The position numbers were made by a program, and so were the translations under genes. Below are positions 2,332 to 33,720 of a stretch of DNA of 35,993 nucleotides, piece after piece. The notes under the pieces are model-generated. The model was not told the DNA's origin. It made no database searches and saw only the letters and a program-made list of their open reading frames with translations. This stretch comes from a virus. Position 1 is the first letter of the stretch. Each line of letters starts with the position of its first letter. The DNA is taken from positions 1 to 35,993 of the IMG/VR virus record IMGVR_UViG_3300034106_000235. One strand, given 5' to 3'.

Positions 2332-3228
2332 TCAATAAAACTCCTGAACAATAATAATTCCAGCCGCACCCGCACTTGAGCCAGCGCCAATAGTGCTTGT
2401 TCCAGCCGCACCGCCAGCACCAACAGCGTAAGAATATGTAGCACTTGGTGAAGTTATTAATTTTCTAACATATCCACCAGCAGAACCACCGCCACCCATA
2501 ACCCCAGAACTAGATGTACCTGCGCTTGCGCCTCCACTACCGCTATTTGCTGCTGGTGTTGGACCTGCCTGACCATCACCTCCAGCTCCTACTCCACCGC
2601 CAAAAAATCCAGCGCCACCAGAATTGCCGACTGCTCCTCCAGATTGGGAAACTGAACTTCCGCCTATTGCTCCTGTAATATTTACATCGCCACCAGAAGC
2701 CGTGCCACCAGCAGGGGGAACTGCACTTACAGTTCCTCCAGCTCCACCGCCTCCTGTTAGTGAACCAAATGTAGTATTTCCACCAGCCGTCCCTGTTGCG
2801 CCACTTACGTTGTAACCTGAGTTATTACCACCAGCACCACCACCAGCGCCTATCAACTCTACAAGAATTGCTTTGCACCCAGTAGGAGTTGTGTATGTAC
2901 CAGAACCAGAAGTAAATACTTGAACAGTTCTAGTTGTTAAAGCGATCGTGCCTGTTAATGCAGGTAAAGTTAAGACGCTAGTTCCAGCAACCGCATTTGC
3001 TGCGACTGTTGTAGTGCCTGATGTTGAACCAACAAATTTTGTCGTTCCAGCAAGATTCAATGTCTTACCGCTACCGATATTAAGACCGACCGATGTTCCA
3101 GTTCCTGCTGCTGCAAAGACTGCATCTACCGAGTCCAAGTCGGTATTGATCTTTGTGCCCCAAGTGTCTGTACTCGCCCCAACTTCGGGTTTAGTTAGTA
3201 ATAGATTGGTTGTTGTGGTATCTGCCAT
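2332..3228 (-). CDS. Tail fibre protein with glycine-rich C-terminal adhesin domain
   Basis: 298 aa. The N-terminus ([19 protein letters not shown], then [12 protein letters not shown]) is the attachment motif of many phage tail fibres. A beta-rich repeat region follows ([32 protein letters not shown]). From about residue 125 the protein is almost entirely Gly, Ala, Ser and Thr, with GAGGGAGG and GGGGAGG blocks, ending [11 protein letters not shown]. This resembles the polyglycine receptor-binding domains seen at fibre tips (T4-like gp38 adhesins and related glycine-rich domains). It should bind the host surface. It lies downstream of the repeat protein and immediately upstream of the lysis genes, a common place for host-range genes. 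Confidence 0.85.
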
Positions 3229-3237
3229 AGTTCACCT

Positions 3238-5226
3238 TCATGCTGGGACTTGCGTCCATGTTTCTGAATTGTCCGATATTTCTGACCAATTTTCCGATGT
3301 GTCTGAGATGGGACTCCAACTCTCCGATGTATCCGCGACTGGTGTCCAATCTTCCGATGTGTCAGATTGTGCTGTCCAAGTCTCTGGCGTGTCGTCTTGT
3401 CTGTCCCAATAAAAGTACCCAACATTGCCAACAGCGCCAGCAATGATTTCCCCAATTATCTCAAGAGTTCTAGCATTCTGTGCGCTACCAATAGCAGTTG
3501 CTGAAGATACGCCAGATATATCAACCACTACAAAAGTCTCGGCAATTACAGTTCCAACATCACAAGTAGACGAATTACCAGAGATGGAAACCGATAAGCT
3601 GTTGACTACTGAGTCAACCGCACCAGTTGACTGGTTGCCATCAATGCCAAACGCCTTGCCGACAGTACCGACTGTTGCGGTTGAGGAGACCCCAGAGATG
3701 GATATCGTGACAGATAAGCCGACAGACCCGACATTACCTGTGCCGACTACGCCATCCTCTTGCTCAGACAGATTGACTAATACAGTTCCAACGGCAGTCG
3801 TTGACGCATTACCTGTCAACGCAATAGATGTAGCGCCACGGCTTACAGAGCCTACGGCAGCCGTTGACGCATTACCCGTCACCGATGCGGAGATTCCTTC
3901 TGCAACGCTGCCTACGGCTGTTGTGGAGGCATTGCCAGTCAGAGCAAAGGATGTTGCGCCACGGGTTACGCTACCGACGGCAGTCGTTGATGAATTTCCA
4001 GTTATGGCAAAGGATGTTGCTCCGCGAGTAACCGATCCAACCGCAGTTGTGGATGCGTTGCCTGTAACTGCAATTAGTGGGGTTGCAACCACAGAGCCAA
4101 CCGACAAGGTTGACGCATTACCAGTCAACGCAAAGGATGTTGCGCCTCTGGTAACGCTTCCGACAGCAGTAGTTGATGCGTTGCCTGTGATCGCTGTTGA
4201 TCTGCTTACGCCAACAGAGTCAACCGCAGTCGTAGAAGAATTACCAGTTACAGCGTGAGTGCGCTCCTCTGCAACACTACCAACCGCAGTAGTCGAAGAA
4301 TTACCAGTTAGAGCAAAGGATGTAGCCCCGCGAGTTACAGAGCCAACGGCAGTAGTTGACGAGTTACCCGTTACTGCAATAGACCTTTCGCTAGTAACGC
4401 TACCAACATTACCAGTCGCTACCGTTCCATCTTCTTGAATTGATATTGATTCTTGTACGCTACCGACGGCAGTAGTGGATGCGTTACCTGTAACGGCAAG
4501 TGATGTAGCGCCTCGACTTACTGAGCCAACGCTAGTAGTTGATGCGTTACCAGTAATTGCTATTGATGTAGCGCCACGACTGACAGAGCCAACAGCAGTA
4601 GTTGACGAATTACCTGTAATGGTTGTCGATACTGCTGCGACAACAGTACCAACATTTCCTGTTGCTACTGTCCCATCTTCTTGAACTGATGTTGACTCTT
4701 GTACGATGCCAACGCTAGTAGTCGATGCGTTTCCTGTAACGGCAAAGGATGTTGCGCCTCGACTAACCGATCCAACGGCAGTAGTTGATGCGTTACCTGT
4801 AACGGCAAAGGATGTAGCGCCTCGACTTACTGAGCCAACGGCAGTCGTTGATGCGTTACCAGTTATTGCGTGTGTTCTTACTTCTTCAACACTACCAACC
4901 GCAGTAGTTGAAGAGTTACCTGTAATGGCTGCCGATACTGCTGCGATAACAGTACCAACATTGCCAGTTGCTACCGTTCCATCTTCTTGAATGGAAATTG
5001 TTTCTGTAACGCTACCAACGGCAGTCGTTGATGCGTTTCCAGATATTGCTACGGTCTTGACTGGTACGACAGAGCCAACATTACCAGTAGCTGCGTTACC
5101 GTTAGCTGTGGTAACGCCTACGCCATAAGCGCCTTGTCCATAGTTAGCGCCACCATATACGCCATAAGGGTATATGGTGCTTGCGTAATTACCTGAGCCG
5201 TAATTACCAGAGCCATAAGCAGCCAT
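3238..5226 (-). CDS. Large repeat tail protein (about 27 TGNASTTAVGSV-type units)
   Basis: 662 aa. The Gly/Tyr-rich N-terminus (GSGNYGSGNYAS, YGGANYGQGAYG) is followed by about 27 tandem units of 15-25 residues from about residue 61 to 605. The consensus is TGNASTTAVGSVSRGATSFA, with variants carrying the insertion QEDGTVATGNVG. The C-terminus (about 608-662) switches to five 10-residue units of the form SDTSExWTPV with Trp exactly every ten residues. The strict G-N/V-G-S periodicity suggests a beta-solenoid or an extended fibrous stalk. It sits between a virion protein gene and the fibre gene, so a virion-surface or tail-fibre role is likely. No enzymatic motif is seen. Confidence 0.8.
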   Translation of the reverse strand: MAAYGSGNYGSGNYASTIYPYGVYGGANYGQGAYGVGVTTANGNAATGNVGSVVPVKTVAISGNASTTAVGSVTETISIQEDGTVATGNVGTVIAAVSAAITGNSSTTAVGSVEEVRTHAITGNASTTAVGSVSRGATSFAVTGNASTTAVGSVSRGATSFAVTGNASTTSVGIVQESTSVQEDGTVATGNVGTVVAAVSTTITGNSSTTAVGSVSRGATSIAITGNASTTSVGSVSRGATSLAVTGNASTTAVGSVQESISIQEDGTVATGNVGSVTSERSIAVTGNSSTTAVGSVTRGATSFALTGNSSTTAVGSVAEERTHAVTGNSSTTAVDSVGVSRSTAITGNASTTAVGSVTRGATSFALTGNASTLSVGSVVATPLIAVTGNASTTAVGSVTRGATSFAITGNSSTTAVGSVTRGATSFALTGNASTTAVGSVAEGISASVTGNASTAAVGSVSRGATSIALTGNASTTAVGTVLVNLSEQEDGVVGTGNVGSVGLSVTISISGVSSTATVGTVGKAFGIDGNQSTGAVDSVVNSLSVSISGNSSTCDVGTVIAETFVVVDISGVSSATAIGSAQNARTLEIIGEIIAGAVGNVGYFYWDRQDDTPETWTAQSDTSEDWTPVADTSESWSPISDTSENWSEISDNSETWTQVPA
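3241..3405 (-). repeat. Five 30-bp coding repeats (SDTSExWTPV decapeptides)
   Basis: The last part of the 662-aa gene contains five approximately 30-bp units, each coding a decapeptide with the invariant pattern D-x-x-E/S-x-W. Trp spacing is exactly ten residues (about positions 617, 627, 637, 647 and 657). The DNA shows repeated TCCGATGTGTC-like blocks on the plus strand. Confidence 0.8.
3456..5043 (-). repeat. Degenerate 60-75-bp coding repeats in the 662-aa tail protein
   Basis: Successive DNA units coding TGN(A/S)STTAVGSV followed by a variable segment (SRGATSFAV, EERTHAV, QEDGTVA). Units are conserved in protein more than in DNA: third positions vary widely between copies, so the array is old or under protein-level selection. 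A few neighbouring units are nearly identical in protein, indicating more recent duplication. The repeat also creates long open frames on the opposite strand. Confidence 0.85.
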
Positions 5227-5243
5227 GTTGCTGCCCCTTAAAT

Positions 5244-5699
5244 TTAAGCGAGTCTGATCAAGCCTGTGCTTGCGTCATTCGTCGGCATGGTGAGTGTAAA
5301 AGTACCAGCCGTTACGGTCTGAGAACCGAAGGTGTGGACGCTAACTGCCTTGTTGCTTTGTGTGCTGTTATACAAGAGCACCGCATCAAATGCAGTAGAT
5401 AGAGTCACATTGGAGTATGTGATGCTGGCACTTGGTGTCACAAATGCAGTAGTACCGCTTGTGCTTGGCGCTGTGCCAAATGTCACCGCTTGACCGCCAG
5501 CCACATAATTAGTTCCAGAGACTTCGTTGGTTGCTGAGTATGCGGTAGTCGATGCGTTAACCGTTGCAGATGCCAAGTACAAGGCAGCCTTAAACGAGTC
5601 GGTAGCAGTAGAGCCACGAGTAACACCAGTACCAAAGTTGTGATGACCTACAAGTAATTCGCCCTTGAACGAAGTACACATTGCTTGAGTATTTGCGAT
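5244..5699 (-). CDS. Phage virion-associated protein (MCTSFK family), likely AUC start
   Basis: The frame reads ANTQAMCTSFKGELLVGHHNF and continues with Ser/Thr/Ala-rich beta-type sequence to LTMPTNDASTGLIRLA. Known relatives have a short leader of the type MAxxxAMCTSFK before this motif, so translation should begin upstream of the internal ATG at 5681. The only codon at the right place is ATC at 5699. It is preceded by AAAGGA at a six-base gap, whereas ATG 5681 has its nearest ribosome site 24 bases away. From ATC the product is 151 aa; from ATG it is 145. It is probably a tail or head accessory protein. An HNH gene separates it from the 65-aa gene. Confidence 0.8.
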   Translation of the reverse strand: MANTQAMCTSFKGELLVGHHNFGTGVTRGSTATDSFKAALYLASATVNASTTAYSATNEVSGTNYVAGGQAVTFGTAPSTSGTTAFVTPSASITYSNVTLSTAFDAVLLYNSTQSNKAVSVHTFGSQTVTAGTFTLTMPTNDASTGLIRLA

Positions 5700-5717: not shown

Positions 5718-6185
5718 TTATACCCAATTAACGCTTTTATTTTGCCACTTACTGCCTATTTTAAGACAGCTCACATGAGACTGAGAAATTCCAAACTCTA
5801 ATGCAATGTCTTTTTGAAACTTATCTGATTTCTTTATCAAATCGACTTGTTGATTAGTTAACTTTGATCTTCCATGTCTTTCTCCAAAACACACTCTACC
5901 TTTTGCTTTTGCATCTTGCATATTTTCTAATCTTGTACCAAGACTTAAATGCTCTGGATTCACGCAATTACGAACATCGCATTTGTGCATTACATCTCTG
6001 TTATCTAGTAATCCATTAAACAGTCTGTATGCAACTCTATGCGCAAGATCATGTTTTTTTGGATTTCTGAATAATCCATATCCATTTTTCATGCAGTATG
6101 CAGACCAAATCCAACAACCAGAATCATCTTTATGCACATGAGACATAAATCTTTCTAGCTCCGAAATTCTTGGTCTACCTGCCAT
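5718..6185 (-). CDS. HNH endonuclease (free-standing homing type)
   Basis: 155 aa from ATG 6185 (AGG site at proper spacing; a TTG at 6191 would add two residues). The N-terminus MAGRPRISELERF is followed by an aromatic, Cys-containing segment (GCWIWSAYCMKNGYG). The HNH_3-like core follows: AHRVAYRLFNG at 48-58, VMHKCDVRNCVNPEHL at 65-80 with His67, Cys69, Cys74 and His79, then a NUMOD-like KAKGR. A C-terminal helix-turn-helix (LTNQQVDLIKKSD, IALEFGISQSHVSCLK) should help choose the DNA target. The gene is clearly AT-richer than its neighbours and sits between two virion genes, the typical signature of a recently inserted mobile endonuclease. Confidence 0.93.
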   Translation of the reverse strand: MAGRPRISELERFMSHVHKDDSGCWIWSAYCMKNGYGLFRNPKKHDLAHRVAYRLFNGLLDNRDVMHKCDVRNCVNPEHLSLGTRLENMQDAKAKGRVCFGERHGRSKLTNQQVDLIKKSDKFQKDIALEFGISQSHVSCLKIGSKWQNKSVNWV

Positions 6186-6187
6186 CT

Positions 6188-6385
6188 TCAACCTAAAGAT
6201 TGAGCGACTGCTTCACCAGTCACGGTCATGCGTTTTAATTTCATATCGACTGAACGATGCACAAGCTCGCCTTCTAGCCAATACTCAACCCATTGAGTTG
6301 TCTCATTGTCATTGTCAATTATCCCCTCTTTTTTCTCAAGAAGAGAGTCGTCCATTTCGCCTTTTGTTGTAGTAACAATAGCCAT
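6188..6385 (-). CDS. Conserved small phage protein, unknown function
   Basis: 65 aa: MAIVTTTKGEMDDSLLEKKEG, then DNDNETTQWVEYWLEGELVHRSVDMKLKR. It has an acidic middle and a predicted beta hairpin (WVEYWLEGELVHRSV). I recognise this as a type of small protein that follows the adaptor gene in SU10-like and related podophages, but its function is not known to me. It begins ten bases after the adaptor stop with an AGGAG-type site (CTAGGAGAAAAAAATG), and its stop lies just upstream of the HNH start. The HNH gene appears to have been inserted immediately behind it. Confidence 0.78.
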   Translation of the reverse strand: MAIVTTTKGEMDDSLLEKKEGIIDNDNETTQWVEYWLEGELVHRSVDMKLKRMTVTGEAVAQSLG

Positions 6386-6394
6386 TTTTTTCTC

Positions 6395-7012
6395 CTAGCC
6401 TAAAGTTCTTGCGCGAGTTATCAGCACACCAGATGTTGACCCACGGTCATCAGCCTCTTTTAACTCTGACAGACCCGTCTTGTAGAGCGATGCCCATACC
6501 GTGATTCTCGCATCATCTTGCAGGTAAGGAGCTGCTTGCAGCAATGCACCGTATAAGTAAACATCAGGAGAAGAAGTCAGTAACCAGTTGGTTGTGTTGG
6601 CAGTTGATAACTTACTCAACTTTGCGTAATAGATCAACTCACCCGTGTAAGTAGTGTCTGGTTCTGGGACAAAGCGAAACTGCTCACCCACAACGCTAAA
6701 GTACAACGGCTTACTTGCTGCGCTGTTTAATCTTTGCAAATCGTTCATTGCGCTGATAGTCTCAAACTGCAATGGGGTGACGGGGTTAGTGTCTAAGACA
6801 AAAGATTTTGTCTCTAGAAAATCAGTTGGAGTGGCAGCGTACTCAGTATTGATCGATGCTGTGGATCGCACGATCATCTGTCTGGTGCGCAGATTACGCT
6901 CGATCTGAGCCTCTGCCAAACTAATAAAGTCAGGAATAGCAGTAGTCAGGTCTGAGCGATTAAGCCAGTCCCCGACAGAAGTCTTCAGCTCGTTATAAGT
7001 GGTTAACGCCAT
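6395..7012 (-). CDS. Head-tail adaptor protein (SU10-type)
   Basis: 205 aa. The N-terminus MALTTYNELKTSVGDWLNR, then IPDFISLAEAQIERNLR, is the conserved start of the podophage adaptor family (SU10 adaptor). These proteins form a ring below the portal and connect it to the tail. The rest is mixed alpha/beta with PTDFLETKSFVL, FRFVPEPDTTYTGELIYYAKL and a helical C-terminus (YLYGALLQAAPYLQDDARI), as in that family. It overlaps the end of the glycosyltransferase gene by 20 bases and is followed by the 65-aa small protein. The length is normal for the family. Confidence 0.87.
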   Translation of the reverse strand: MALTTYNELKTSVGDWLNRSDLTTAIPDFISLAEAQIERNLRTRQMIVRSTASINTEYAATPTDFLETKSFVLDTNPVTPLQFETISAMNDLQRLNSAASKPLYFSVVGEQFRFVPEPDTTYTGELIYYAKLSKLSTANTTNWLLTSSPDVYLYGALLQAAPYLQDDARITVWASLYKTGLSELKEADDRGSTSGVLITRARTLG

Positions 7013-7673
7013 CTTCAGCCTTTTCTGCTTTCTCCAAGTCGCGCATCACCCAAGTGTGATCGTGCTTGAATTCAAATGTCCCAATGTGTCCGATCTCTTT
7101 GGACACATCATGGTCTATGTAGATTTTAAAGCCAGCCGACTGTGCTTTACGACAGAAGAAAACATCCTCGCCAACATACCCGCGCTTGTCATTGCGCCAA
7201 GGAGTCTCAAACCAAGGTTCTGTTAAAGCCTCGAAGACCTTGCGTTTGATGAGCATCACGCCCATGCCGATAGAGCCGACTTCCTCAATCCCTGTGGAGT
7301 CTGGCATTGTGTAGACGAGCACGCGCTCACCGTTCTCGTCATAGCGCTGGGCAGTTGGTCCTGTCGGCATCCTGCGCCTTGCGCAGTTTGTTGCCACGAC
7401 ATCCAAGTCATGCGCCAAGAGTCTCTCAATCATGTCCTGCGGGAAGGTCATGTCTGAGTCAACAAACAAGATATGGGTACAACCCTCAGCCATTGCGTCT
7501 AGGCACAGATCAGCACGCTGGGTCTGGATAAGTGTTCCTTGCATAATCTTCAAGGACACCGCATCAGTCGTGTTGATAGTGTGGTGCGCCACCATGTTCA
7601 CCATACAGAAGGTGAAATTAGCGTGAACCATGTCACGCGCTGGTGTGCAGACTGCAATGTAGTTTGGGGTCAT
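6993..7673 (-). CDS. Glycosyltransferase-like protein, GT-A fold
   Basis: 226 aa. The N-terminal beta strand (MTPNYIAVCTPARDMVHANF) is followed by a conserved Q/R segment (TLIQTQRADLCLDAM), a DXD-type metal/sugar-nucleotide site (ILFVDSDMTFP, Asp72-Asp74), and a late acidic motif GYVGEDVFFCRKAQSAGFKI (Glu169-Asp170) typical of GT2-like enzymes. It should transfer a sugar from a nucleotide donor; the acceptor is unknown and could be virion protein, DNA base or cell surface. It lies between the 104-aa protein and the adaptor inside the head module. It differs clearly from the two tandem transferases at 13-14 kb. Confidence 0.85.
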   Translation of the reverse strand: MTPNYIAVCTPARDMVHANFTFCMVNMVAHHTINTTDAVSLKIMQGTLIQTQRADLCLDAMAEGCTHILFVDSDMTFPQDMIERLLAHDLDVVATNCARRRMPTGPTAQRYDENGERVLVYTMPDSTGIEEVGSIGMGVMLIKRKVFEALTEPWFETPWRNDKRGYVGEDVFFCRKAQSAGFKIYIDHDVSKEIGHIGTFEFKHDHTWVMRDLEKAEKAEDGVNHL

Positions 7674-10263: not shown

Positions 10264-12456
10264 TTAGACCATTCCTTGTGGGTTGATGGGTTGCATTGGT
10301 GCTGGCTGGGCTTGCGCCATCGCCTGTTGTACCAACGCGCCTTGCTCTCGAATAACCTCGCGGTTGACATTCTGCTCCGCAACAATTTGTGCGGTATTCA
10401 GTTGTGTGTTGTACTTTAACTCAAGTTCCATTTGTTTAAGTAGTCTATCTTGACTCATTTGATCGCGTCTAAAGTCGTCGTCCATGATCATCTTCTGGCG
10501 CTGTAACTCCAAGTCGGCAGCCTTTTTCTGGATGTCTGCACGAATAGACTCGGCTTGCACCTGAGCCAAAACCTCTTCTGGGCTTGGTTTTGGCGGTGCT
10601 TGTGGGGGCTTGTAGCCCTCTGGTATGTCGTTGAAGTAGCTCGATGCGTCTTTGATTCCTGACATCTCGACGATCTTCTTTAAGGTGTTGACATACATCT
10701 GCGGAGTCACCACCACATTCTCTAAGCCAAACTGAGTCAAGATGGATTCTTGCTTGGCGAGTACCTGCATGAGCTGCATCTGGCGCTCATTTGCATCGCC
10801 ATTGCCCAGACCGATATTGATGTTGACATCCATCGTCGCGTCCCATCCGCGTGGGTCAATCTGCACAAACTTATTGCGCAATCGGATCATGCGGGGTTTG
10901 TCTTGGTGAGTGGTAACCAAAAACAGGATTGTCTTAAACAGCTCCTTCATGCCCTCAGCCATGAGACGCGCAGTCAGCTCGATGCGTCCTTGGCTGGCGC
11001 TTACTGTGGCAGCCACGGCAGCCTTAGTTGAAGACTGCAACGCATCTGGGTTGAGACCCATAGATGCCTTAGACATTCCTGTGCGACCTTCCTTGATCTC
11101 GTCCAAGTAGTTGAGCACAGGGAAAGCAGCCTGTCCGACAAATGGGGTTACCAACGGCTGCACCATATTCGGAGCACGCGCACGAATGATCGCGCCCGTC
11201 TCGTTGTTCAAGGCATCGTCAATGTTGACCTGACCCTCAACGATCACGGTGCGGGGATGGATCGACTGCGCCAGAGAGTCGAGCGTATTGCGCATGACTT
11301 CTGACTTGATCTCTTGTAAGTCGCGTGTAATGTCAAAGATCGACATCGCCTCAAGTGGTGATGTGTGGGGTTCTGGGTCACAAGGGAATTCAACGAATGG
11401 GATGTATGACGCTGGCAGGTTTCTAACCATCTTGTAGCCAGACCCCATAAAGCACATCTTCCTCAACTCAGGAATGCCGTCGCCATCAAAGTCAACCTTG
11501 GCGTATCCCTCGATGTACAAAACTCTTTGCATCATCGGGTTCGCGCTCTCGTTTAAGAACTGAGAGTTGCTAAGTGGCTGGCGTGCAAGAGCCTCTTCGT
11601 TGTCGTACAAGTCGGACGAGCCAACATAGTCCATAACTTCGTCTTCGTCGTAGCCCATGCCGACCAACTCAGCAACCGTTGCCATCTTGCGGTGACCGAT
11701 AAAAGGTGAGTCCTTGAAGGACATCGCTTGGCGAGACAGTAGCAATTCTTCTGGCGGTAAACACGCCACATGGATACGCTTGTCAACGATCTTTCTTTTG
11801 ACCTGCACATCGTGCATCATGGCTGGGGGTAGTGGCATTCCAGTCATCGGATCGATCTGCATCGCTCCTTGCATACTCTCGTCTGGATAACTCGCAACGA
11901 TCTGCACATCTGCGTCTCCCTCTTGCATGACGACCTGCAAGGTCTGGTCATCTAGACCTGAATATTCCTCAATTCGCACCGACTCCGAGTCCTCAATGTA
12001 GACCTTGACAATGCCACACTTCCTGACAAGAGCGTCTTTAAATGTGGCGTATGCCACCATAAAACCGTTGTTGTCGTTGTTAAAAACATAGTTGCAGTAG
12101 TCTGTGGCTTGCTGTGCGCTGTCTACATCCTCTGGACCACGCGGGACAAACTCGACCGTGTTCTCGCTGCTAAAAAACACCTTCATCAAGGACGGCAGCA
12201 TGGCAGACACGGTGTCTCTCACCTCCATCGCCACTACTTGTGAGCGACCCTCTTCCTCGTTACCAAAGGGATCACCACGGTAGTACTCAGTACCGCGAGC
12301 GCGGATAGGAGAGAGGTCAGAGTCGATGTAGCTCACAGCGTCTGTGATCTCTTGACCCATGATCGCTTCTAAGTCGGTGTCTGTCATAGGGGTGAGCGTC
12401 GGGTCAATCTGTGACGCGATGTCGGTGCTCAATCCCAGCTCGTTAGTAATATTCAT
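10264..12456 (-). CDS. Portal protein
   Basis: 730 aa. The N-terminal helical region contains a segment typical of podophage portals (LSPIRARGTEYYRGDPFGNE, then VVAMEVRDTVSAMLPSLMKVFF). The middle holds IRARAPNMVQPLVTPFVGQA and YLDEIKEGRTGMSKASMGLN, the stem/crown signature of P22/SU10-type portals. The C-terminal 130 residues are helical and coiled-coil, Gln/Met-rich (ADLELQRQKMIMDDDFRRDQ), a barrel-type extension. The protein forms the dodecameric ring through which DNA is packaged and ejected. It is long, as expected for portals with a barrel. It overlaps the methyltransferase stop by four bases and precedes the small head protein and scaffold. Confidence 0.93.
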   Translation of the reverse strand: MNITNELGLSTDIASQIDPTLTPMTDTDLEAIMGQEITDAVSYIDSDLSPIRARGTEYYRGDPFGNEEEGRSQVVAMEVRDTVSAMLPSLMKVFFSSENTVEFVPRGPEDVDSAQQATDYCNYVFNNDNNGFMVAYATFKDALVRKCGIVKVYIEDSESVRIEEYSGLDDQTLQVVMQEGDADVQIVASYPDESMQGAMQIDPMTGMPLPPAMMHDVQVKRKIVDKRIHVACLPPEELLLSRQAMSFKDSPFIGHRKMATVAELVGMGYDEDEVMDYVGSSDLYDNEEALARQPLSNSQFLNESANPMMQRVLYIEGYAKVDFDGDGIPELRKMCFMGSGYKMVRNLPASYIPFVEFPCDPEPHTSPLEAMSIFDITRDLQEIKSEVMRNTLDSLAQSIHPRTVIVEGQVNIDDALNNETGAIIRARAPNMVQPLVTPFVGQAAFPVLNYLDEIKEGRTGMSKASMGLNPDALQSSTKAAVAATVSASQGRIELTARLMAEGMKELFKTILFLVTTHQDKPRMIRLRNKFVQIDPRGWDATMDVNINIGLGNGDANERQMQLMQVLAKQESILTQFGLENVVVTPQMYVNTLKKIVEMSGIKDASSYFNDIPEGYKPPQAPPKPSPEEVLAQVQAESIRADIQKKAADLELQRQKMIMDDDFRRDQMSQDRLLKQMELELKYNTQLNTAQIVAEQNVNREVIREQGALVQQAMAQAQPAPMQPINPQGMV

Positions 12457-12986
12457 TTTTTACCCTTAGTCAATACGACATACATGGAGTCCACAGCTCG
12501 CGGAGTCCTTAACAGTTCTTCTTGCGTCAATTTTAGGTCTTGTGCGATGGGATTTAACCTAAATTCCAAGCTCGTCATGTAAAACCGATCTTCCCAGCCA
12601 AGATACCAATGCCAGTCGGTGTAATAAAGCCACGACTTTTCGTTGAATGCGCGAAGGTGAGTCGGGTCTTGCCACGCGCCATAACTCAAGTCATACGGCA
12701 CATGGATGCGCATCTCGCCACCAACCTTCAGCAACTTCTTGCAGCTCGTCATTGCACCCACCAGATCGGGCAGATGTTCGAGCACATCGTTTGCCAGTAT
12801 TGCGTCAAACATCTCTGGCTGGATGTCAAAGTCTCCGAGTCGTGTGGAGATCGCGTCGCCCCACGGCACATTGCAGATGTCGAGCAACCAGTCGTGCTTG
12901 ACGCGCAGTTGAATGTCTGCGTTGATGCAGTCTTCTCGAAAGTCCTTGCCAGAGCCTAAGTTAAGTACCAAAGAAGTGTTCGACAT
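12453..12986 (-). CDS. SAM-dependent methyltransferase, class I
   Basis: 177 aa. Motif I is VLNLGSGKDF (residues 7-16) for SAM binding. A second acidic residue lies in INADIQ, and motif IV/post-II is FDAILANDVLEHLPD (60-74), typical of small class-I methyltransferases of the type found in glycan-modification clusters. Further conserved pieces are GGEMRIHVPYDL and DPTHLRAFNEKSW. The substrate is unknown. It directly follows two glycosyltransferase genes (overlapping the first by 26 bases), so it may methylate a sugar those enzymes add. It overlaps the portal start by four bases. Confidence 0.87.
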   Translation of the reverse strand: MSNTSLVLNLGSGKDFREDCINADIQLRVKHDWLLDICNVPWGDAISTRLGDFDIQPEMFDAILANDVLEHLPDLVGAMTSCKKLLKVGGEMRIHVPYDLSYGAWQDPTHLRAFNEKSWLYYTDWHWYLGWEDRFYMTSLEFRLNPIAQDLKLTQEELLRTPRAVDSMYVVLTKGKK

Positions 12987-13650
12987 ACTGTGGGCGGTTC
13001 TCTTTTATCCAAGGCAAAGCCTCGGCAACAAGTTGTTGTCCGTTATCTCCAATGGTTTGACTTCCAACATGATGGACATAGGCGCTTGAAACAAAGTGCC
13101 GATAACCCTGATTGGTGAGGTCTGCGCAGCTCACATCGTCTGAGTACCAGTTGAGTGGTCCAAACCTGCCGTGATGCCATGCGTCTCTAGAGATGTACGC
13201 GAAGATTGGTGACACATTGTCAGTCTCACGAATAAACTGCTCTGACTTAAAGCGGTTCATGTGGAGAGGATCACCGTCTGGGTTGTAGCGAATATTCTGT
13301 GAAGGTCTCGCGCAATCGCTTCTTGCACCCACCCAGCCGACATTGACCTCCAGCTCGCGGATCACCTGCACATCTTCCAATAGTCGCTGGTAGCTTGTCG
13401 GTGTCAGCACCACATCGTCGTTGCAGACGATGCAAGCCTGTGCGTACTTCAATGCGTCGTCGATTACTTCGTTGTAATCGTCGCCAAAGTTACGGGGTTC
13501 GCCAAAGATAAGCCTTGCGTTCTTGTAACCAGAGATAACGCGCTCAGTACCGCGAAGGTAGACAAATGCCTCTGGTGCGTATTGCTTGATTGACTCAAGC
13601 AGAACTGGCAAACCTTTGCCGTTAACCGTCGATATGCAGATGGGGATCAC
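12961..13650 (-). CDS. Glycosyltransferase-like protein (tandem copy 1)
   Basis: 229 aa from GTG 13650, which overlaps the previous stop (GTGA). The GT-A-like N-terminus (MIPICISTVNGKGLPVLLES) is followed by an acidic metal site CNDDVVLTPTSY (Asp78-Asp79) and a second acidic motif LNWYSDDVSCADL (171-172), then SSAYVHHVGSQTIG near the C-terminus. The same arrangement occurs in the gene immediately upstream (start motif LPVLL.SI, DDVVL.P..Y, W.SDD, AY.HHVGSQT.G), showing tandem duplication followed by deep divergence. It likely transfers a sugar to an unknown acceptor, perhaps virion surface protein, or it may modify the host envelope. Confidence 0.82.
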   Translation of the reverse strand: MIPICISTVNGKGLPVLLESIKQYAPEAFVYLRGTERVISGYKNARLIFGEPRNFGDDYNEVIDDALKYAQACIVCNDDVVLTPTSYQRLLEDVQVIRELEVNVGWVGARSDCARPSQNIRYNPDGDPLHMNRFKSEQFIRETDNVSPIFAYISRDAWHHGRFGPLNWYSDDVSCADLTNQGYRHFVSSAYVHHVGSQTIGDNGQQLVAEALPWIKENRPQYVEHFFGT

Positions 13651-14333
13651 TTTTTATCCCCAAAGTATTTTGCGTGCATATCTGGTCTGTTTTCGCGCAA
13701 CCAGCCCTCTGAGTTTTCTTTGCACTTGGCAAAGTCAGTTCCAAATGTTTGCGACCCAACATGATGGAAATATGCGCGGGATACAAACAATCTGCAATCG
13801 TTTTTTATGAATTCATTGCATTGCAAGTCGTCTGAAAACCAGTCTATTGGGGCAATATCAATCCAAGTCGATTTCTGACACCAAGCGACGATCCCTGCCA
13901 AATAATCTGTCTCAACAATCTGGCTTTCACTCTCATACCCAAGTGAATACAGCTTTCCTTCTCCCGTACGAATATTCTGAAAGCCCTTTGCGTAGTTCGT
14001 CCTTCCAGCCACAATGCCAAGTTTGAAGCCCATTGACTTGAGTTGATTGACATCATCAATCAATACGCTGTATGTGTTTGGGTTTAAAACCACATCGTCG
14101 TCAATAGAGACAAAACTGTCGTGCGTCTCAAATATCTTGTGAGCCATGAAGTTGTGCGCAGCACCGCCAGTCTCGTATGTATGCACAAAGTGATGCACTT
14201 TATGCCTTGGCAAAGACTGTATGTTTGGACTGGTTATAAAAATCTCAACATCCTCTGGGACATATAGCTCAATAGATTTAAGAAGTACGGGTAAGCACTT
14301 CTCATTTTTTGAGCATATTCCAATAGGTGTCAC
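13647..14333 (-). CDS. Glycosyltransferase-like protein (tandem copy 2)
   Basis: 228 aa from a GTG start overlapping the upstream stop. It is a paralogue of the next gene: MTPIGICSKNEKCLPVLLKS, acidic site SIDDDVVLNPNTY (Asp78-80), DWFSDDLQCNEF, and AYFHHVGSQTFG near the C-terminus. The middle differs (RHKVHHFVHTYETGG). The DNA is somewhat AT-richer than copy 1, which hints that this copy was acquired or exchanged separately and not produced by recent duplication. The ribosome site is weak and translation is probably coupled to the preceding gene. The acceptor is unknown. Confidence 0.82.
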   Translation of the reverse strand: MTPIGICSKNEKCLPVLLKSIELYVPEDVEIFITSPNIQSLPRHKVHHFVHTYETGGAAHNFMAHKIFETHDSFVSIDDDVVLNPNTYSVLIDDVNQLKSMGFKLGIVAGRTNYAKGFQNIRTGEGKLYSLGYESESQIVETDYLAGIVAWCQKSTWIDIAPIDWFSDDLQCNEFIKNDCRLFVSRAYFHHVGSQTFGTDFAKCKENSEGWLRENRPDMHAKYFGDKK

Positions 14334-26502: not shown

Positions 26503-28878
26503 CTACGCCAGTAAGCCAGTCATGCCTTCGACAGCAGCCAAAGGTTGACCCTTCTGTACCGCCTTCTTCATCTCTGGTGTGATGTCTAGGTAGCGTACAG
26601 TTTCTTTTTGAGTTGGAGTTTTCCTAAATTTTTCAAACTCTTTTACATATTTATTATTTGAGCCTTGCTCCCAATTAGATAAAGCCGTATTGCTACCTCC
26701 AACATTGCTATGATTTTCCGCAAACCAATCTCTAAAATATGCCCATGAACTTGAGGTTTTTTGAGGCAAACCAATTTCTGTTTCACCGACCTGCGCACCA
26801 TACTTCTTGCCGTACTTGTTTAAGAAGTTTGGATATATCTCGTCGTAATACTTCTTCATGCCTTCGCCACCGACTTTAAGGTCAATGCCAGATAGCTCTG
26901 TCATGTATTTTTTGTTTGAGGTCATTGAAGCAGGATCATATTCCCCAGCAACTTCTGTTTGTTTACCAGTTCCTTTGGACATTTTTTCAGCAATTTCTTT
27001 TCCAACATAATCAGATAATTTTGATTCTGGTATTGCTTCTCCAATCATTTGCCCACGACCTTGTACTTGTGCGCTAACACGATAAGTTCCATCTGCATTT
27101 TTACTATATAACAAATTATCAACTTGCTTACTCAAGTCATATCTTGCTGCTTGTTGCGCACCAGTAGTCAGACCGATTCTGTCATATCCCTTGTCTACGG
27201 CTTCTTTGATTGCTCTCTTGAGTGCTAACTGATACCAAGTATCTTTGAATGGTGCGTCTGGTACGCCTTCAATAGAAGTTCTACCAAGTCTGTTTTGCTC
27301 AGTTTGTAGATTTTGCAACCTATTAGACACGATGCTCCATTGATCTATTATGTTTGCTGGAGCATCTTTTCCAATGCTTGTAAATGGTTTTGCCAATTCT
27401 TCAAGTCTTTGCTGCTCATCAAGTAATCTACTGCGCTCTGCTAATAAATTATTTAATGCTGTTTCCTTTGCCATTCTTCTTTCTGGCGTGTCATAACCCT
27501 TCTCACGCCCAGCTTGATGCCAGTCTGATTGAACTTCCTCAATCAATAGCATCTTTTTGCCTTCAGCATCGACGCGATCATTAACGCGCATATGAGCTAA
27601 CGGGTTTTTAATATCAGGAAAATGAGAAGATTTATATGGGTCTAGTTCTTCTGTTGCATAAAACTTATCAAGCCTTGCTCTTTCAATATCAGTTAAAGGC
27701 AGATTATCAAATCCACCTTGACCATACTTATCCCTTAGAGTTTTTACATACTTGTTATATTCGCTCATGTTTTCTGGCAAAGTAAAAACCAACTCTCGAT
27801 AGTTTTCACCGCCAGCAAGTTGGTATTGCCCAAATTTAGGAGCTTCACCTTGGAAAGATGATAATGATTCTTCAATACCAGTTCTTTCTTTTGAAATGTC
27901 GCTCATTGTTTTTCTTAATTCGCTATATGGAATACCACCCTCTTCATATCTTAGTTTTGCTGTTTCAATTTGATCGGTTAATTGTCTGTATCTATTGTTG
28001 AGTAAATCTTTTTGCGCTTGATCTTCTGGAGTCAGAGCGCCATATCTAACCTCTTGCACATCAACTCGATTGTTAGCAATAAAATCCTGCACCTCTTGGC
28101 GCGTCACATTTGGCTTGCCTTTGAGGTAGGTATCTAAGCCCATAGCCTCAATCTCGTACTTCTTGACATCCTGACCTTTGAGAAGATCATTCAAGAAGGA
28201 CTCACCAGTTCCTTGCTTTCTAGGAATCTTGAGTGCTTGCTGTTCAACTGCTGAGTAAAACCCTAGAGGAGACACTTCGGCTTGCAATAGACCGCTAGTC
28301 ATTGCTTGCTCTGCTGGGTTCACCGCAAACATTGCTGTCTGAGGTTCAGCCAATAAACTAGGCAATATAGGTCTGCCAGTATTGAGTCTCGTTGCCATCT
28401 CCTCACCAAGCAGACCGCCTAGTTTCTGCACACCTCTGACTGCTGGCATTGGATTGATTGGAGCGAAACTAGCAACTCTGCCAGCCACATCACCGACTGG
28501 TGTGTCTGACTTCAATGGCATAGTGTCTAAATAATATTCAGTATCAGGATACTTTTGTTGACCTGTAAGCGCTTGGCTTAAAAGTTGTAGTGGTCTGATC
28601 ATTGGTATCGGCTGGTTCACCACATCGCCAAATAAGCCCCGTGTGCCAGCAATACGACCCCTCACCACATCGACAGGCACATTAGCGCTTGCCGTAATGT
28701 CTTGCTGAGACCGATACGGTTGCATCTGCGGAAATACGCCAAAGGCAGGACTCTGAGCTGCTGCCATGCGTTCTATCTCTTGCGGAGTTAACTGCAATAA
28801 GCCTTTTGACTTTTGCGGTGAACCAAAATAATCAACCCCGCCAAACAGTAAACCAAGTGGGTCTGAATAGTCTGCCAT
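26503..28878 (-). CDS. Large polyvalent-type internal/ejection protein, 791 aa
   Basis: The N-terminus (MADYSDPLGLLFGGVDYFGS) shares the xxLLFGG motif with the 511-aa gene nearby. After about 220 residues of low-complexity and helical sequence comes a conserved module at about 360-640. Its marks are REKGYDTPERRM, LLIEEVQSDWHQAGREKGY, APFKDTWYQLALKRAIKEAV and GYDRIGLTTGAQQAARYDL, a region widespread in large phage polyvalent proteins. It continues to YYDEIYPNFLNKYGKKYG. The protein is probably packaged and ejected with DNA; the activity of the conserved module is unknown to me. The central DNA (about 26.6-28.1 kb) is AT-rich relative to the flanks, so this module may have been acquired horizontally. 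Confidence 0.8.
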   Translation of the reverse strand: MADYSDPLGLLFGGVDYFGSPQKSKGLLQLTPQEIERMAAAQSPAFGVFPQMQPYRSQQDITASANVPVDVVRGRIAGTRGLFGDVVNQPIPMIRPLQLLSQALTGQQKYPDTEYYLDTMPLKSDTPVGDVAGRVASFAPINPMPAVRGVQKLGGLLGEEMATRLNTGRPILPSLLAEPQTAMFAVNPAEQAMTSGLLQAEVSPLGFYSAVEQQALKIPRKQGTGESFLNDLLKGQDVKKYEIEAMGLDTYLKGKPNVTRQEVQDFIANNRVDVQEVRYGALTPEDQAQKDLLNNRYRQLTDQIETAKLRYEEGGIPYSELRKTMSDISKERTGIEESLSSFQGEAPKFGQYQLAGGENYRELVFTLPENMSEYNKYVKTLRDKYGQGGFDNLPLTDIERARLDKFYATEELDPYKSSHFPDIKNPLAHMRVNDRVDAEGKKMLLIEEVQSDWHQAGREKGYDTPERRMAKETALNNLLAERSRLLDEQQRLEELAKPFTSIGKDAPANIIDQWSIVSNRLQNLQTEQNRLGRTSIEGVPDAPFKDTWYQLALKRAIKEAVDKGYDRIGLTTGAQQAARYDLSKQVDNLLYSKNADGTYRVSAQVQGRGQMIGEAIPESKLSDYVGKEIAEKMSKGTGKQTEVAGEYDPASMTSNKKYMTELSGIDLKVGGEGMKKYYDEIYPNFLNKYGKKYGAQVGETEIGLPQKTSSSWAYFRDWFAENHSNVGGSNTALSNWEQGSNNKYVKEFEKFRKTPTQKETVRYLDITPEMKKAVQKGQPLAAVEGMTGLLA

Positions 28879-28882
28879 ATCT

Positions 28883-30664
28883 TTACGGTCCTAAAAGTCC
28901 ACCGAGTCCAAGACCACCAGTAATTGGAAGTGCTCTCTTTAATGACTCTACTTGTGCTTGCTCTAGTGCGTTTGGCATCAAGCCAGTACCGCCAACAGTT
29001 CTGGTCAATACCGATGACGCTGGCGCTGATGTGTAAGCCCTTGCAGCCAAGTTTGTTGGCATCGACAAAAGCATATTCAATGGCGAGTATTCCATCGAAC
29101 GAGTCGCAGTTCCAGAGTCACCGACGATTGGTCTAAATGCCTGTGCAAACCTTGCAGCCTCATACATTGGTGTCTGGTTAGAGCCAAACACAAAACCTTG
29201 TGGGTCTTTGCGTGTCAGGGCAGACGCTAGATTCAAACCAGATACATTGCCTGATGACGGGTTGACAACGCCAGACGCTGTGCGAATGGTCATTAGGTTG
29301 CGGTAGTTGTTGCGAGCTGTAGCAAACGCCTCTTGCTCTGCCTTGCTGAGTCCAGCAGATAGAGCGTCGTCGACCATCTCCTTTAACTGGAATAAGGCAG
29401 AGCCTAACTCACGGTCACCCATTGCGGTAGTCATCTCATTCTTGGCACGCTTGCCGATCTTAGAAGACAGGTTTTGCAGTTGTACGCCACTAGCCTCACC
29501 CTTTAGAGCCAAGTCCTGTAACTGCTTGACGAGGACATTAGTCTTTAACGGCTGAGTGGTAAGACCTTCAAAGGCATTGTCCACAAGGTCAATGTTGTTC
29601 ATAAAGGTCATGCCGTCTACTTTGCGTACATCTGGTGTTGCCACCTTCTTGTAGACATCGCTGATCTGACGCTGTGCTTGAGCCAATACTGGATTGCTCA
29701 ACTCGTCAGAGTTCACGCCAATGGCTTGAGCTGTGGCGCGGTTTAATACCTTCTGGTTTTCAGCCTTGATGGTGTTAAACGGTGCAGAAGTGAATGGACT
29801 TGACTCCATTCGAGCTTCCATCTGGAGGAGTGAGCGTGAGCCTGTCTCTTGTGCTGGCGTAGTCTTGAAACCCATAGCCTTGCCACGCTCTAAGATAGCC
29901 TTTTGAGCAGCAGTAAGGGCAGCGCCAGACTCAGGTGCAACAGCGCCTAAGTTGACACCACCACCAGTAACTTGAGCAGTTGGTGTGGCGCTCACAGTTG
30001 CCTGAGCAGAACTAGGAGCACCAGCACCGCCAACGGCAGGAGCTGCACCACGACCAAATAAAAGGTTAGCGATCTTGTCTCCAAGATACCCGCCACCAGC
30101 ACCAAGCAAACCACTTAATCCAACTTGCGTAGCCTTTTGCGCACCAAATGAATCTTGTGGTTCAAGGACTGGCTGTAAGCCACCTCCAATAACACCAGAG
30201 ACAGCGCCAGCACGCACAGGTGCAGTTGTTAGTCCAAGAGCCTTCACAGCCGTTGTAGCGGGGATTGCGGTAGCAGCAACACCACCAACAGCGCGACCAA
30301 CATCAAACTCGTCAGGTCTCATCTGACCCATGCGCCAGTCTTGTTGGTAGGCGCGTTCAGCCTCGCGGTTTATGTCTTCAACTCGTTTGCGCTCTGCTTG
30401 CATGAACTTCTCCATGCTAGAGCCAGCAGGTGCAACGGCTTCTAAGCCTCGCGTCAACAGTTGTGCGCCAGCGTCTGGAATGTCACGCAAGCCACGAATA
30501 ACACCGCCAACAGGAGAAGCCAAGACCTTCTCTGTAACCGTCTTAGGTTGTCTAGGTGCTTGCACGCCTTGCATTGATTGCAAAGCCTTAACAATGTCTT
30601 GAGGACTCATTGAGTCTGGAAACTCAATAACTCCTATGTCTGGTACTGTTACTTTTTGAACCAT
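28883..30664 (-). CDS. Internal virion / ejection-type protein, 593 aa
   Basis: The N-terminus (MVQKVTVPDIGVIEFPDSMS, then IVKALQSMQG) is the short beta/helix motif that opens many podophage internal proteins. A hydrophobic, Ala/Gly/Val-rich middle follows (VGGVAATAIPATTAVKALGL, VGLSGLLGAGGGYLGDKIAN) with several candidate membrane-interacting helices, then long helical sequence (LALKGEASGVQLQNLSSKIG). Such proteins are carried in the head and form part of the DNA-injection channel through the envelope. It sits between two other proteins of similar kind in one operon. The assignment is based on composition and context, not on a named family. Confidence 0.75.
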   Translation of the reverse strand: MVQKVTVPDIGVIEFPDSMSPQDIVKALQSMQGVQAPRQPKTVTEKVLASPVGGVIRGLRDIPDAGAQLLTRGLEAVAPAGSSMEKFMQAERKRVEDINREAERAYQQDWRMGQMRPDEFDVGRAVGGVAATAIPATTAVKALGLTTAPVRAGAVSGVIGGGLQPVLEPQDSFGAQKATQVGLSGLLGAGGGYLGDKIANLLFGRGAAPAVGGAGAPSSAQATVSATPTAQVTGGGVNLGAVAPESGAALTAAQKAILERGKAMGFKTTPAQETGSRSLLQMEARMESSPFTSAPFNTIKAENQKVLNRATAQAIGVNSDELSNPVLAQAQRQISDVYKKVATPDVRKVDGMTFMNNIDLVDNAFEGLTTQPLKTNVLVKQLQDLALKGEASGVQLQNLSSKIGKRAKNEMTTAMGDRELGSALFQLKEMVDDALSAGLSKAEQEAFATARNNYRNLMTIRTASGVVNPSSGNVSGLNLASALTRKDPQGFVFGSNQTPMYEAARFAQAFRPIVGDSGTATRSMEYSPLNMLLSMPTNLAARAYTSAPASSVLTRTVGGTGLMPNALEQAQVESLKRALPITGGLGLGGLLGP

Positions 30665-30673
30665 GATAGAACC

Positions 30674-32209
30674 TTACTTTTGCTCAAGTTGACCAGTTGC
30701 AGGGTTATATGTAAAAACCTTTTGCGTTGTGGCTGCTGCTGGCATAGATTGCTTGTATGAGGAAGACAGATTCTTGTCTGCGCGATCCAACATATCCTCC
30801 AGCACCTTAACCTGAGCATTCATTGCGTTCTTGCTTGTCAGCAAACCAGTCCATGAAGATGGGTTAGTTAACTGACGCTCAATGATTGACATATCAGGAC
30901 CAGTCAAAGCACCTAACTCATACAGATTCTTAACGCCCATCAATAACGAGTTGTACTTACCAGCAACCCTTGCACTATCCTGACCGATAGGCATAGGTAT
31001 GCCAGAGTCAGTAAACGGGATAGGAATGTTTTTAGGTACAACCCACACGCCAGATTTAAGCTCCATTTTGTAGTCATCAATAGCACCACGAAGGTCATTA
31101 AGTTGGCGTGATGCCTTCATAAACGCTTCTGGTGCTTTTGGTTGTAATGGAATGATTGGAGTTAATGGTTGCATTCCAGTAGGCGCTGCTTGAGGTGTGC
31201 CAGCACCACCAGTAGGAGCGCCAGCAGGAGCTGGAGCGCCAGCAGGACGAGGTGCGCCACCTACACCGCCACCGCCACCGCCACCAATTTGGAAGTAACC
31301 GCCAGCCTCTGCACCGCCAACTACTTGAGGTGCAAGTGTCTTACCAAGACTTGTACCTGCTGGCACTTTGTCTTTATCCACAAATGTAATTACGCCACCC
31401 CTGTCAACTTGGATGAGTTCTCTTGCTGGTCCAAATCCTTGAACAGTTCTAAATGTGCCGTCACTCATTTGATTGACTAGTATTTGCTTACCTTCAGAGT
31501 CAGTAACCTTGATTGGCGCTCCCATTGGTTTCTCTATTGGAGCAAACTGTCCAGAGACAGGGATAAATTGACCACTCTTTGTACGCTGCACATACTCGCC
31601 AGATGCGGTTTTAAAGATATCTCCAGTAACTTCTTCTCTTGGCTTAATCTTTAGGGCTGACTCTAAATACTTTGCTGCAATGTCTGGATATCCTGATCTT
31701 TCAGCAATCATGTATTTATTCATTGCGTCTTGATACAACATATCTTGCTGAGACATTCTTTGCGTAGGCGCTTGCACTTGCTGACCTATTAAGTTTGCAC
31801 GCGCAACGGTAGGACCAGCAGGTAGACCCTCCATAGATATGGCTTGATCTGGCGTGATCGTCGTGACTTCACCACCACCACCCATTTGCGGTTGCATTTG
31901 TTGCGTTTGCAACGCCTTGCGGAAGTCTTCCATACGCTTGGCTTCCATTAGTTTCTGTCTTGTCAACAAACTCTGCACAGCACCTTGCTGTGCTTGCTGG
32001 TAACCCTGAGCACCTGCTTGCAAAGCACCGCCAAGTGCTTGACCTAAAGAGATAGGGGTACGGCTTGGACCGCCAGCCTGTAAGAGCGCTGCTGCTGCTT
32101 GCAGCAACGCTTGGTTTCTAATTCCACTTTGCTGGTCAGCGCTTAGATAGTCTTCTAGACCAGTACCGCCACCGCCAAAGAGTAAACCACCAAAGTCTTG
32201 TATTGCCAT
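30674..32209 (-). CDS. Internal virion / ejection-type protein, 511 aa
   Basis: The N-terminus (MAIQDFGGLLFGGGGTGLED) is followed by a helical, Ala/Gln-rich stretch (ALLQAAAALLQAGGPSRTPI, ALQAGAQGYQQAQQGAVQSL), then Gln/Met-rich and Gly/Pro-rich segments (GGGGGGVGGAPRPAGAPAPA at about 314-333). The C-terminal part is helical (MKASRQLNDLRGAIDDYKME, LLMGVKNLYELGALTGPDMS). The LLFGG opening is shared with the 791-aa protein. Its place in the block and its composition fit an ejected internal protein. No catalytic motif was seen. Confidence 0.75.
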   Translation of the reverse strand: MAIQDFGGLLFGGGGTGLEDYLSADQQSGIRNQALLQAAAALLQAGGPSRTPISLGQALGGALQAGAQGYQQAQQGAVQSLLTRQKLMEAKRMEDFRKALQTQQMQPQMGGGGEVTTITPDQAISMEGLPAGPTVARANLIGQQVQAPTQRMSQQDMLYQDAMNKYMIAERSGYPDIAAKYLESALKIKPREEVTGDIFKTASGEYVQRTKSGQFIPVSGQFAPIEKPMGAPIKVTDSEGKQILVNQMSDGTFRTVQGFGPARELIQVDRGGVITFVDKDKVPAGTSLGKTLAPQVVGGAEAGGYFQIGGGGGGGVGGAPRPAGAPAPAGAPTGGAGTPQAAPTGMQPLTPIIPLQPKAPEAFMKASRQLNDLRGAIDDYKMELKSGVWVVPKNIPIPFTDSGIPMPIGQDSARVAGKYNSLLMGVKNLYELGALTGPDMSIIERQLTNPSSWTGLLTSKNAMNAQVKVLEDMLDRADKNLSSSYKQSMPAAATTQKVFTYNPATGQLEQK

Positions 32210-32219
32210 GATCTACCCC

Positions 32220-33347: not shown

Positions 33348-33360
33348 ATCATCTCCCTTG

Positions 33361-33720
33361 TCACACCTTGTTGGTGTAGATAAAAGCCTTCGATCCGTCC
33401 AATAGTGATATTTGACATTTCTCAGACCAGCCAAATGACTTGGCAAATCTTGCAAGTTTGATGTCATCTTCGCGTATTAGCGCGTAGATAGGCTTCCCAA
33501 TTAAATCCTCCACAAGAGCAAAGTCCCTATGACAACCTCTTTTGACTTCAGCCGACCACTTCTTTATGTCGATATGAAACCATAAAAGACCCTCAAAGAA
33601 CTCCAAGTAAAAGGTGTAATCCTCTCGGATACACACAGGTACTTTCCCCGCCCTTAATTCTTGATCCAATTCTAAGTCACCGTTTGCCCATTGCGACAAC
33701 ATCAAATCGGTTAACGCCAA
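33361..33720 (-). CDS. Small conserved phage protein, possibly acetyltransferase-fold (T7 gp13-like position)
   Basis: 119 aa reading MALTDLMLSQWANGDLELDQ, then YLEFFEGLLWFHIDIKKWSA, then LIREDDIKLARFAKSFGWSE. Alternating strands and helices and the end motif RFAKSFGWSEK...FIYTNK recall GNAT-like internal proteins located near podophage nozzle genes, but the acetyl-CoA loop is not visible, so this is tentative. The start is either TTG 33720 (GAGGA about eight bases upstream) or ATG 33702 (no clear site). It overlaps the nozzle-protein gene by up to 44 bases. Confidence 0.7.
   Translation of the reverse strand: MALTDLMLSQWANGDLELDQELRAGKVPVCIREDYTFYLEFFEGLLWFHIDIKKWSAEVKRGCHRDFALVEDLIGKPIYALIREDDIKLARFAKSFGWSEKCQISLLDGSKAFIYTNKV

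Follow-up and report, generated by a model that had tools for sequence, protein, structure and literature searches.

The window analysed here is a 35,993-nucleotide stretch of viral DNA (positions 1 to 35,993 of IMG/VR record IMGVR_UViG_3300034106_000235). Its reverse strand carries a gene for a repeat protein of 662 residues plus stop (3238–5226), preceded by an AAGGGG that is likely the ribosome-binding site (5234–5239, same strand). The ORF list and the translation bear out these limits and this length, which an earlier note, made from the sequence alone, had given. The protein is built of three parts, all on the reverse strand: a Gly/Tyr-rich N-terminal part (YGSGNYG..., residues 1–40, 5107–5226), a tandem array (residues 41–602, 3421–5106), and a C-terminal part with six Trp at a spacing of 10 (residues 603–662, 3241–3420). 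The N-terminal start MAAYGSG or MAAYGTG is found in nearly all relatives listed. Thr and Ser together make up 32% of the window protein, Lys 0.3%, and Arg 2.3%.

Repeat array and Trp element

The array comprises 28 units when relaxed cores are allowed, in good agreement with the earlier count of about 27. The unit table has 27 rows, of which one of 42 residues (548–589) was split by eye into units of 22 and 20 residues. Units are of 20 (17 units), 21 (nine), 18 (one), and 22 residues (one), the end of the final 20-residue unit having been set at 20 by script. Each consists of a core of 13 residues (consensus ITGNASTTAVGSV) followed by a seven- or eight-residue linker. The literal sequence TGNASTTAVGSV occurs six times and TGN[AS]STTAVGSV 11 times. 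The segment types that had been described as shuffled inserts are variants of the linker, apart from one that is a variant of the core. The supposed insert QEDGTVATGNVG belongs to this variant core, EDGTVATGNVGTV, which stands in for ITGNASTTAVGSV at the 13-residue core position, has the usual seven-residue linker after it, and keeps the same register. Such EDG-type units are located, on the reverse strand, at residues 81–100 (4927–4986), 183–202 (4621–4680), 265–284 (4375–4434), and 490–509 (3700–3759).

Self-comparison of the window protein gives a top lag of 20 residues, far above chance (z 13.6 vs. shuffles). The control set was 84 mechanically derived, greedily chosen, non-overlapping ORFs of at least 180 residues from four phage genomes, including the window gene and two counterparts; only these three reach z ≥ 5 with a top lag of 19–22, while a top lag of 19–21 at any z is seen in 10 of the 84. 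Of 16 family members and counterparts tested, 14 have their strongest period at lag 20–22.

The C-terminal Trp residues of the window protein are at positions 607, 617, 627, 637, 647, and 657, and the five decapeptides claimed for this end are real in the sense of six Trp delimiting five intervals. Within the repeat protein, the Trp part ranks with the better conserved regions. Among the 91 distinct complete proteins listed, the longest chain of aromatic residues at exact spacing 10 is six in 77, four in 12, and one in two (L030 and L032, where the spacing is not strict); chains of three or five do not occur, and 89 of the 91 have four or six. With strict spacing the aromatic count is thus four or six and never odd, so the element changes by two decapeptides, or 20 residues, which is the same step as that of the array. 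On the upstream-region tree at least nine changes between four and six are counted, a number that recombination and weak branches may inflate. The element is periodic, as the earlier note had it, but its independence from the array is doubtful. An alternation of two decapeptide types was considered and is unsupported overall, identity at lag 10 (0.576) exceeding that at lag 20 (0.529).

Searches of Pfam, NCBIfam, and PHROGs returned no significant family for the repeat protein (phrog_14658 only at E 0.0082), and no chain among PDB sequences matched the repeat proteins. No relatives were present among the 100 pattern matches listed for GTDB genome contigs. In tblastn searches of phage records, the short form L036 had no match and the window protein one weak match. 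The papers listed for phage tandem repeats, β-solenoids, and Trp in tails include none on the family, and a search for the fiber–tail adaptor yielded no paper.

AlphaFold2 models show regular strands, two per unit, with mean pLDDT values of 56.6 for the window protein and 40.7 for L036, and low values at both ends. In the fold search, no match to the PDB reached an E value of 0.001. VIA-align returns chains of solenoid-like shape; the best Z score is 15.4 at an RMSD of 19.9, and a Z score of 13.2 is obtained at 3.1 Å over 206 residues of an SRRP. In a viral fold library, a protein of an uncultured Caudovirales phage (A0A6J5Q5Q3; E 3e-9, 26% identity) is likely a relative, and the herpesvirus protein A7KPX4 (E 1e-4, TM 0.10) was taken as a chance match. 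AlphaFold2 is described, in the available text of PMC11795689, as over-predicting β-solenoids from repeat sequences. Because of this tendency the β-solenoid proposed in the earlier note is kept as a hypothesis of low confidence: two strands per unit and the VIA-align matches would fit it, but the low pLDDT and the lack of a PDB match leave it weak.

Genes around the repeat gene

The repeat gene is separated by 17 nt from its upstream neighbor, which encodes a 145-residue protein of phrog_644 (unknown function), minor-tail-type by position (5244–5681, reverse strand), and by 9 nt from its downstream neighbor, a tail-fibre-type gene (2332–3228, reverse strand) that matches phrog_863 and has a Gly-rich C-terminal half. 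Further upstream, the protein encoded at 6395–7012 (reverse strand) matches phrog_2941 (virion structural protein) and is, by position, what relatives have as tail tubular protein A, the order being as in Sinorhizobium phage phiM5. Among the loci listed, a phrog_644-type gene is directly upstream in all 117 whose contig leaves 600 nt or more for it; of 115 loci, 108 have a fibre N-terminus no more than 400 nt downstream. In five of the seven exceptions the fibre N-terminus is about 520–540 nt away, and in two (L030 and L032) another gene is found there. The repeat gene is thus encoded within the tail-fibre gene cluster, and it is this position that supports the term tail protein used in the earlier note.

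A relation of the upstream protein to gp80 of Ralstonia podophage GP4 was considered and rejected. The first match, to chain a of PDB entry 8JOU, came from a mixed profile, and separate profiles give no support. The 145-residue protein has no Pfam match to PF23140 (Podophage GP4 fiber I protein gp80) up to E 10, its profile–profile probability against the gp80-like profile is 1.1, and an HMM search performed no better than shuffles. The gp80 link therefore holds for relatives only, where the upstream neighbors match PF23140 above the curated cut-off (phiM5 gp17, 1.5e-43; MW202879, 1.7e-43; Burkholderia phage BcepIL02 gp55, 2.2e-33).

Judged by its head and tail genes, the phage sits among the LUZ24-like podophages; its major capsid protein is 68% identical to that of MW202879 and 54% to that of phiM5, a phage that the available text of PMC10386132 relates to LUZ24. 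Several other genes of the window are worth recording. An HNH_3 endonuclease gene (5718–6191, E 2e-11), perhaps encoding a homing endonuclease, lies between the tail tubular and phrog_644 genes. A glycosyltransferase-like gene (Anp1, E 5e-9; 6993–7673) and a methyltransferase-like gene (12453–12986) are found among the head and tail genes, and in MW202711 and MW202496, too, a gene with the annotation glycosyltransferase separates the capsid genes from the tail genes. Two adjoining ORFs of 229 and 228 residues (12961–14333) have similar starts (MIPICISTVNGKGLPVLL and MTPIGICSKNEKCLPVLL) and match nothing in Pfam at E 0.01 or lower. A 217-residue protein (35166–35819), weakly matching BclA_C (E 9e-4, under the curated cut-off), is possibly a trimeric tail-fibre head. 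Contig L002 matches window positions 27624–35128 in reverse complement (99.99%) and continues over the window ends (1/35993) into matches of 84–90%. This makes the record look like a nearly complete genome that is circularly permuted; the fall in identity points to recombination or to a chimeric contig.

Relatives, array length, and counterparts

Two scans of viral contigs yielded at least 121 loci with relatives of the repeat gene (44 in the first and 77 new ones in the second), a few of them on one contig. The second scan contributed the best 80 of 539 confirmed stretches, from at least 599 stretches; the family is therefore larger, and the sample is skewed to the query, a short form. Length range and neighborhood counts refer to loci from the scans (L045–L050 come from outside them), and Trp, length-pair, decapeptide, and tree counts to complete genes (leaving out L023, L044, and L033). 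Complete relatives among the loci listed range from 213 to 662 residues, so that the comparison of repeat number among related phages proposed in the earlier note does reveal variation. The short forms listed mostly come in a few lengths (213, 233, or 234 residues), and a quick upstream-region tree (2 changes, 90 rows, many weak branches) separates the forms of at least 400 residues into two groups.

Among long-clade pairs with upstream identities of 80–97% (bins 80–85, 85–89, 89–92, 92–95, and 95–97), which are not independent of one another, length differs in 124 of 124–125; it also differs in the single pair at 97–99% and in six of 15 at 99–100%. The gap between L003 and the window, L001, and L002 is one residue only. 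L003 and L004 differ by pS 0.07 in the upstream gene and 0.36 in the repeat gene, a sign of allele exchange at the repeat locus, the gene itself being also exchanged. The L015 and L018 genes differ by one exact 180-nt (three-unit) indel at a 103-nt exact repeat, plus one base. The long form is present in three contigs and the short form in two; with a 103-nt repeat at this place, collapse of the short contigs in assembly is conceivable. Two copies of the repeat gene (L052 and L053; 233 and 229 residues) are found on one 53-kb contig (IMGVR_UViG_3300043409_000116), which may be a chimera or two joined related genomes.

The repeat gene is under purifying selection in its frame, with pN/pS values of 0.25–0.34 for the window against L003, L004, and L009, and 0.25–0.36 across eight pairs of relatives with enough change; the upstream gene is tighter (0.06–0.16). 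Comparison between units gives pS 0.56–0.65 and pN 0.09–0.15 for RGATS-linker units and canonical cores, and pN 0.28 for all cores. The array units are old copies kept by selection on the protein. Since synonymous differences between them are about 0.6 and the longest exact DNA repeat within the window gene is 30 nt, collapse in assembly is unlikely. L001 (99.5%) and L002 (99.99% DNA identity to the window) carry the same 662-residue array without gaps, and the misassembly feared in the earlier note thus appears improbable. Its proposal of unit duplication and recombination is supported by the 180-nt indel and by an array within the array (period 306 nt or about five units, 1.9 copies, 82% matches). 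Growth at the N-terminal side only, the last eight units corresponding to a whole short protein, was rejected: short proteins match best at unit 11, 2, or 16, in a scan in which a start at unit 22 was impossible.

Counterparts occur in named phages. The three-part build is found at or near the same place in phiM5 gp18, MW202879 (24365–25045), MW202462 ('serine-rich adhesin'), Octadecabacter DB virus 2 gp11, and DSL-LC04, and, less directly, in MW202496 and Methylophilales phage Venkman gp51 ('HERC6'), which stand further from the gp80-like gene. In a profile comparison, the Trp part of the family matches Venkman gp51, MW202462, MW202879, and phiM5 gp18 jointly (probability 98.6, E 6.3e-16, 68 columns), with an E value that may be flattering because the region is short and periodic. 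Like the window protein, phiM5 gp18 is encoded between a tail gene (gp17, GP4 gp80 family) and a fibre gene (gp19), and its YG-rich start and terminal Trp spaced by 10 are shared with MW202879; at 198 residues, however, it shows only a weak 20-residue period (z 3.3). Venkman gp51 and MW202462 resemble the window protein in having 20-residue units (lag 20, z 11), a distinct (aromatic/Gly-rich or other) N-terminus, and a Trp-x9 C-terminus, but their units are fewer and more diverged and sequence identity is low. Unlike in the window, Venkman gp51 lies apart from the gp80-like gp59, and in MW202462 a stabilization protein comes next. The aromatic chain numbers six in MW202462, MW202496, and DB virus 2, four in Venkman, four in phiM5 if a Tyr counts, and three in MW202879, whose protein ends early. 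Venkman gp55 (L048 25361–27553, FhaB-like) has a 17-residue period (z 22), a repeat of another type in the same tail cluster.

A more distant likeness is seen in the Bcep22 group. BcepIL02 gp56 and JC1 gp54 (phrog_19041) directly follow a gp80-family gene and have periods of 20 (z 7.6) and 22 (z 4.8), respectively. Of six genes of this group picked by position alone, five have a top lag of 20 or 22, the exception being Itty13. In contrast to the window protein, none of the six counterparts has a Trp part, and profile similarity is lacking: the family and the Bcep22-group counterpart align with probability 0.1, phrog_19041 does not match the window protein, and a profile link to BcepIL02 gp56 was sought and not found. 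In BcepIL02 the gene downstream of the counterpart belongs to the GP4 gp77 fiber–tail adaptor family, so that homologs of two solved tail-fibre proteins of GP4 (gp80 and gp77, PDB entry 8JOU), neither of which is the repeat protein, flank the repeat-type gene. Chain g of 8JOU is assigned by the LSH1 authors, in the available text of PMC13243795, to a fibril between adhesin and nozzle collar of GP4. The neighborhood lacks a repeat gene in MW202711, MJing1, DL54, HTVC023P, CRP-207, CRP-902, and MW202675, and the gene is therefore optional.

Proposed role and its alternatives

We put at roughly 55% the probability that the repeat protein is a virion component of the tail region, namely an elongated, β-rich spacer or stalk beside the minor tail protein and the fibre. 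Repeat number varying among close relatives suggests a stalk of adjustable length. Such a stalk would be made with, and placed beside, the upstream-encoded minor tail protein and the downstream-encoded fibre; the Gly/Tyr-rich N-terminus and the Trp decapeptides would serve as its two attachment ends, and the intervening 20-residue units would determine how long it is. In favor of this reading are the conserved gene order, the counterparts of like build, the shared period and Trp part, purifying selection, and the virion annotation of BcepIL02 gp56. Against it stand the two proteomes described below, the poor fold model, the failure to tie the upstream protein to gp80 or the family to the Bcep22-group counterpart, and the relatives that have the neighborhood and no repeat gene.

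Ranked next, although we give it rather little credence, is an assembly factor that helps to fold or attach the downstream-encoded fibre and is absent, or nearly so, from the finished virion. This would fit a gene that has, at the loci listed, a tail gene on one side and a fibre gene on the other, as well as two proteomes that, in their available parts, show both neighbors of a counterpart and do not list the counterpart itself: the phage record marks phiM5 gp17 and gp19, and not gp18, as 'detected in phage particle proteome', and the rows seen in Table 6 of the JC1 virion proteome (PMC9144972) include gp53, gp55, and gp56 and not gp54. However, small proteins as poor in Lys and Arg as the window protein are easily missed by trypsin mass spectrometry, and BcepIL02 gp56 is annotated as virion-associated and matches phrog_19041 as 'virion structural protein'. 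To our knowledge, chaperones also rarely contain long regular arrays, which here reach 28 units. The high Thr and Ser content and the Trp spaced by 10 would suit a host or surface adhesin instead, with a possibly glycosylated or sugar-binding array and a Trp ladder binding glycans, as would the Anp1 gene in the structural cluster and its likes in MW202711 and MW202496. We consider this less probable still, as family searches matched no carbohydrate-binding family to the repeat protein, and receptor tips usually diversify, whereas the Trp part is among the better conserved parts.

The readiness with which length changes, in nearly all long-clade pairs at 80–97% upstream identity and by three units between L015 and L018, whose genes otherwise differ by a single base, raises the question of whether the array is largely neutral, its length drifting by recombination and mattering little while the ends are kept; counterparts with few or poor units (phiM5 and Itty13) point the same way. 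Yet the units are strongly constrained (pN about 0.09–0.15 vs. pS about 0.6), the register of 20–21 residues is strict, and most short forms have one of a few lengths, which makes neutrality an unlikely explanation, below the adhesin. Least probable by far is an assembly error or a spurious ORF. Repeats often collapse, and the opposite strand of the repeat gene region also holds long ORFs; nevertheless, the 30-nt limit on exact repeats, the same array in two other contigs, purifying selection on the frame, and at least 121 loci with relatives all argue against an artefact.

Within the preferred reading of a spacer or stalk, it is tempting to speculate that array units and paired Trp decapeptides form the same coil, so that the whole is one spacer with a 20-residue quantum and fibre reach is tuned by recombination of whole coils (8–28 units), faster than by point mutation. 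This extension is doubtful, and we rate it no higher than the assembly factor.

As a tail-cluster repeat protein the protein is of an ordinary kind; what sets it apart is an unusually long array, a natural length series, and the even-only Trp element. The last of these offers a structural hint that can be put to the test and is independent of predicted structures. Proteins so far labelled hypothetical, 'ribonuclease E', 'HERC6', or 'serine-rich adhesin' also receive a name and a layout from the family. If the protein is a stalk, its forms from 213 to 662 residues would constitute a natural length series in otherwise similar phages, and the effect of fibre reach on adsorption would thus be directly testable.
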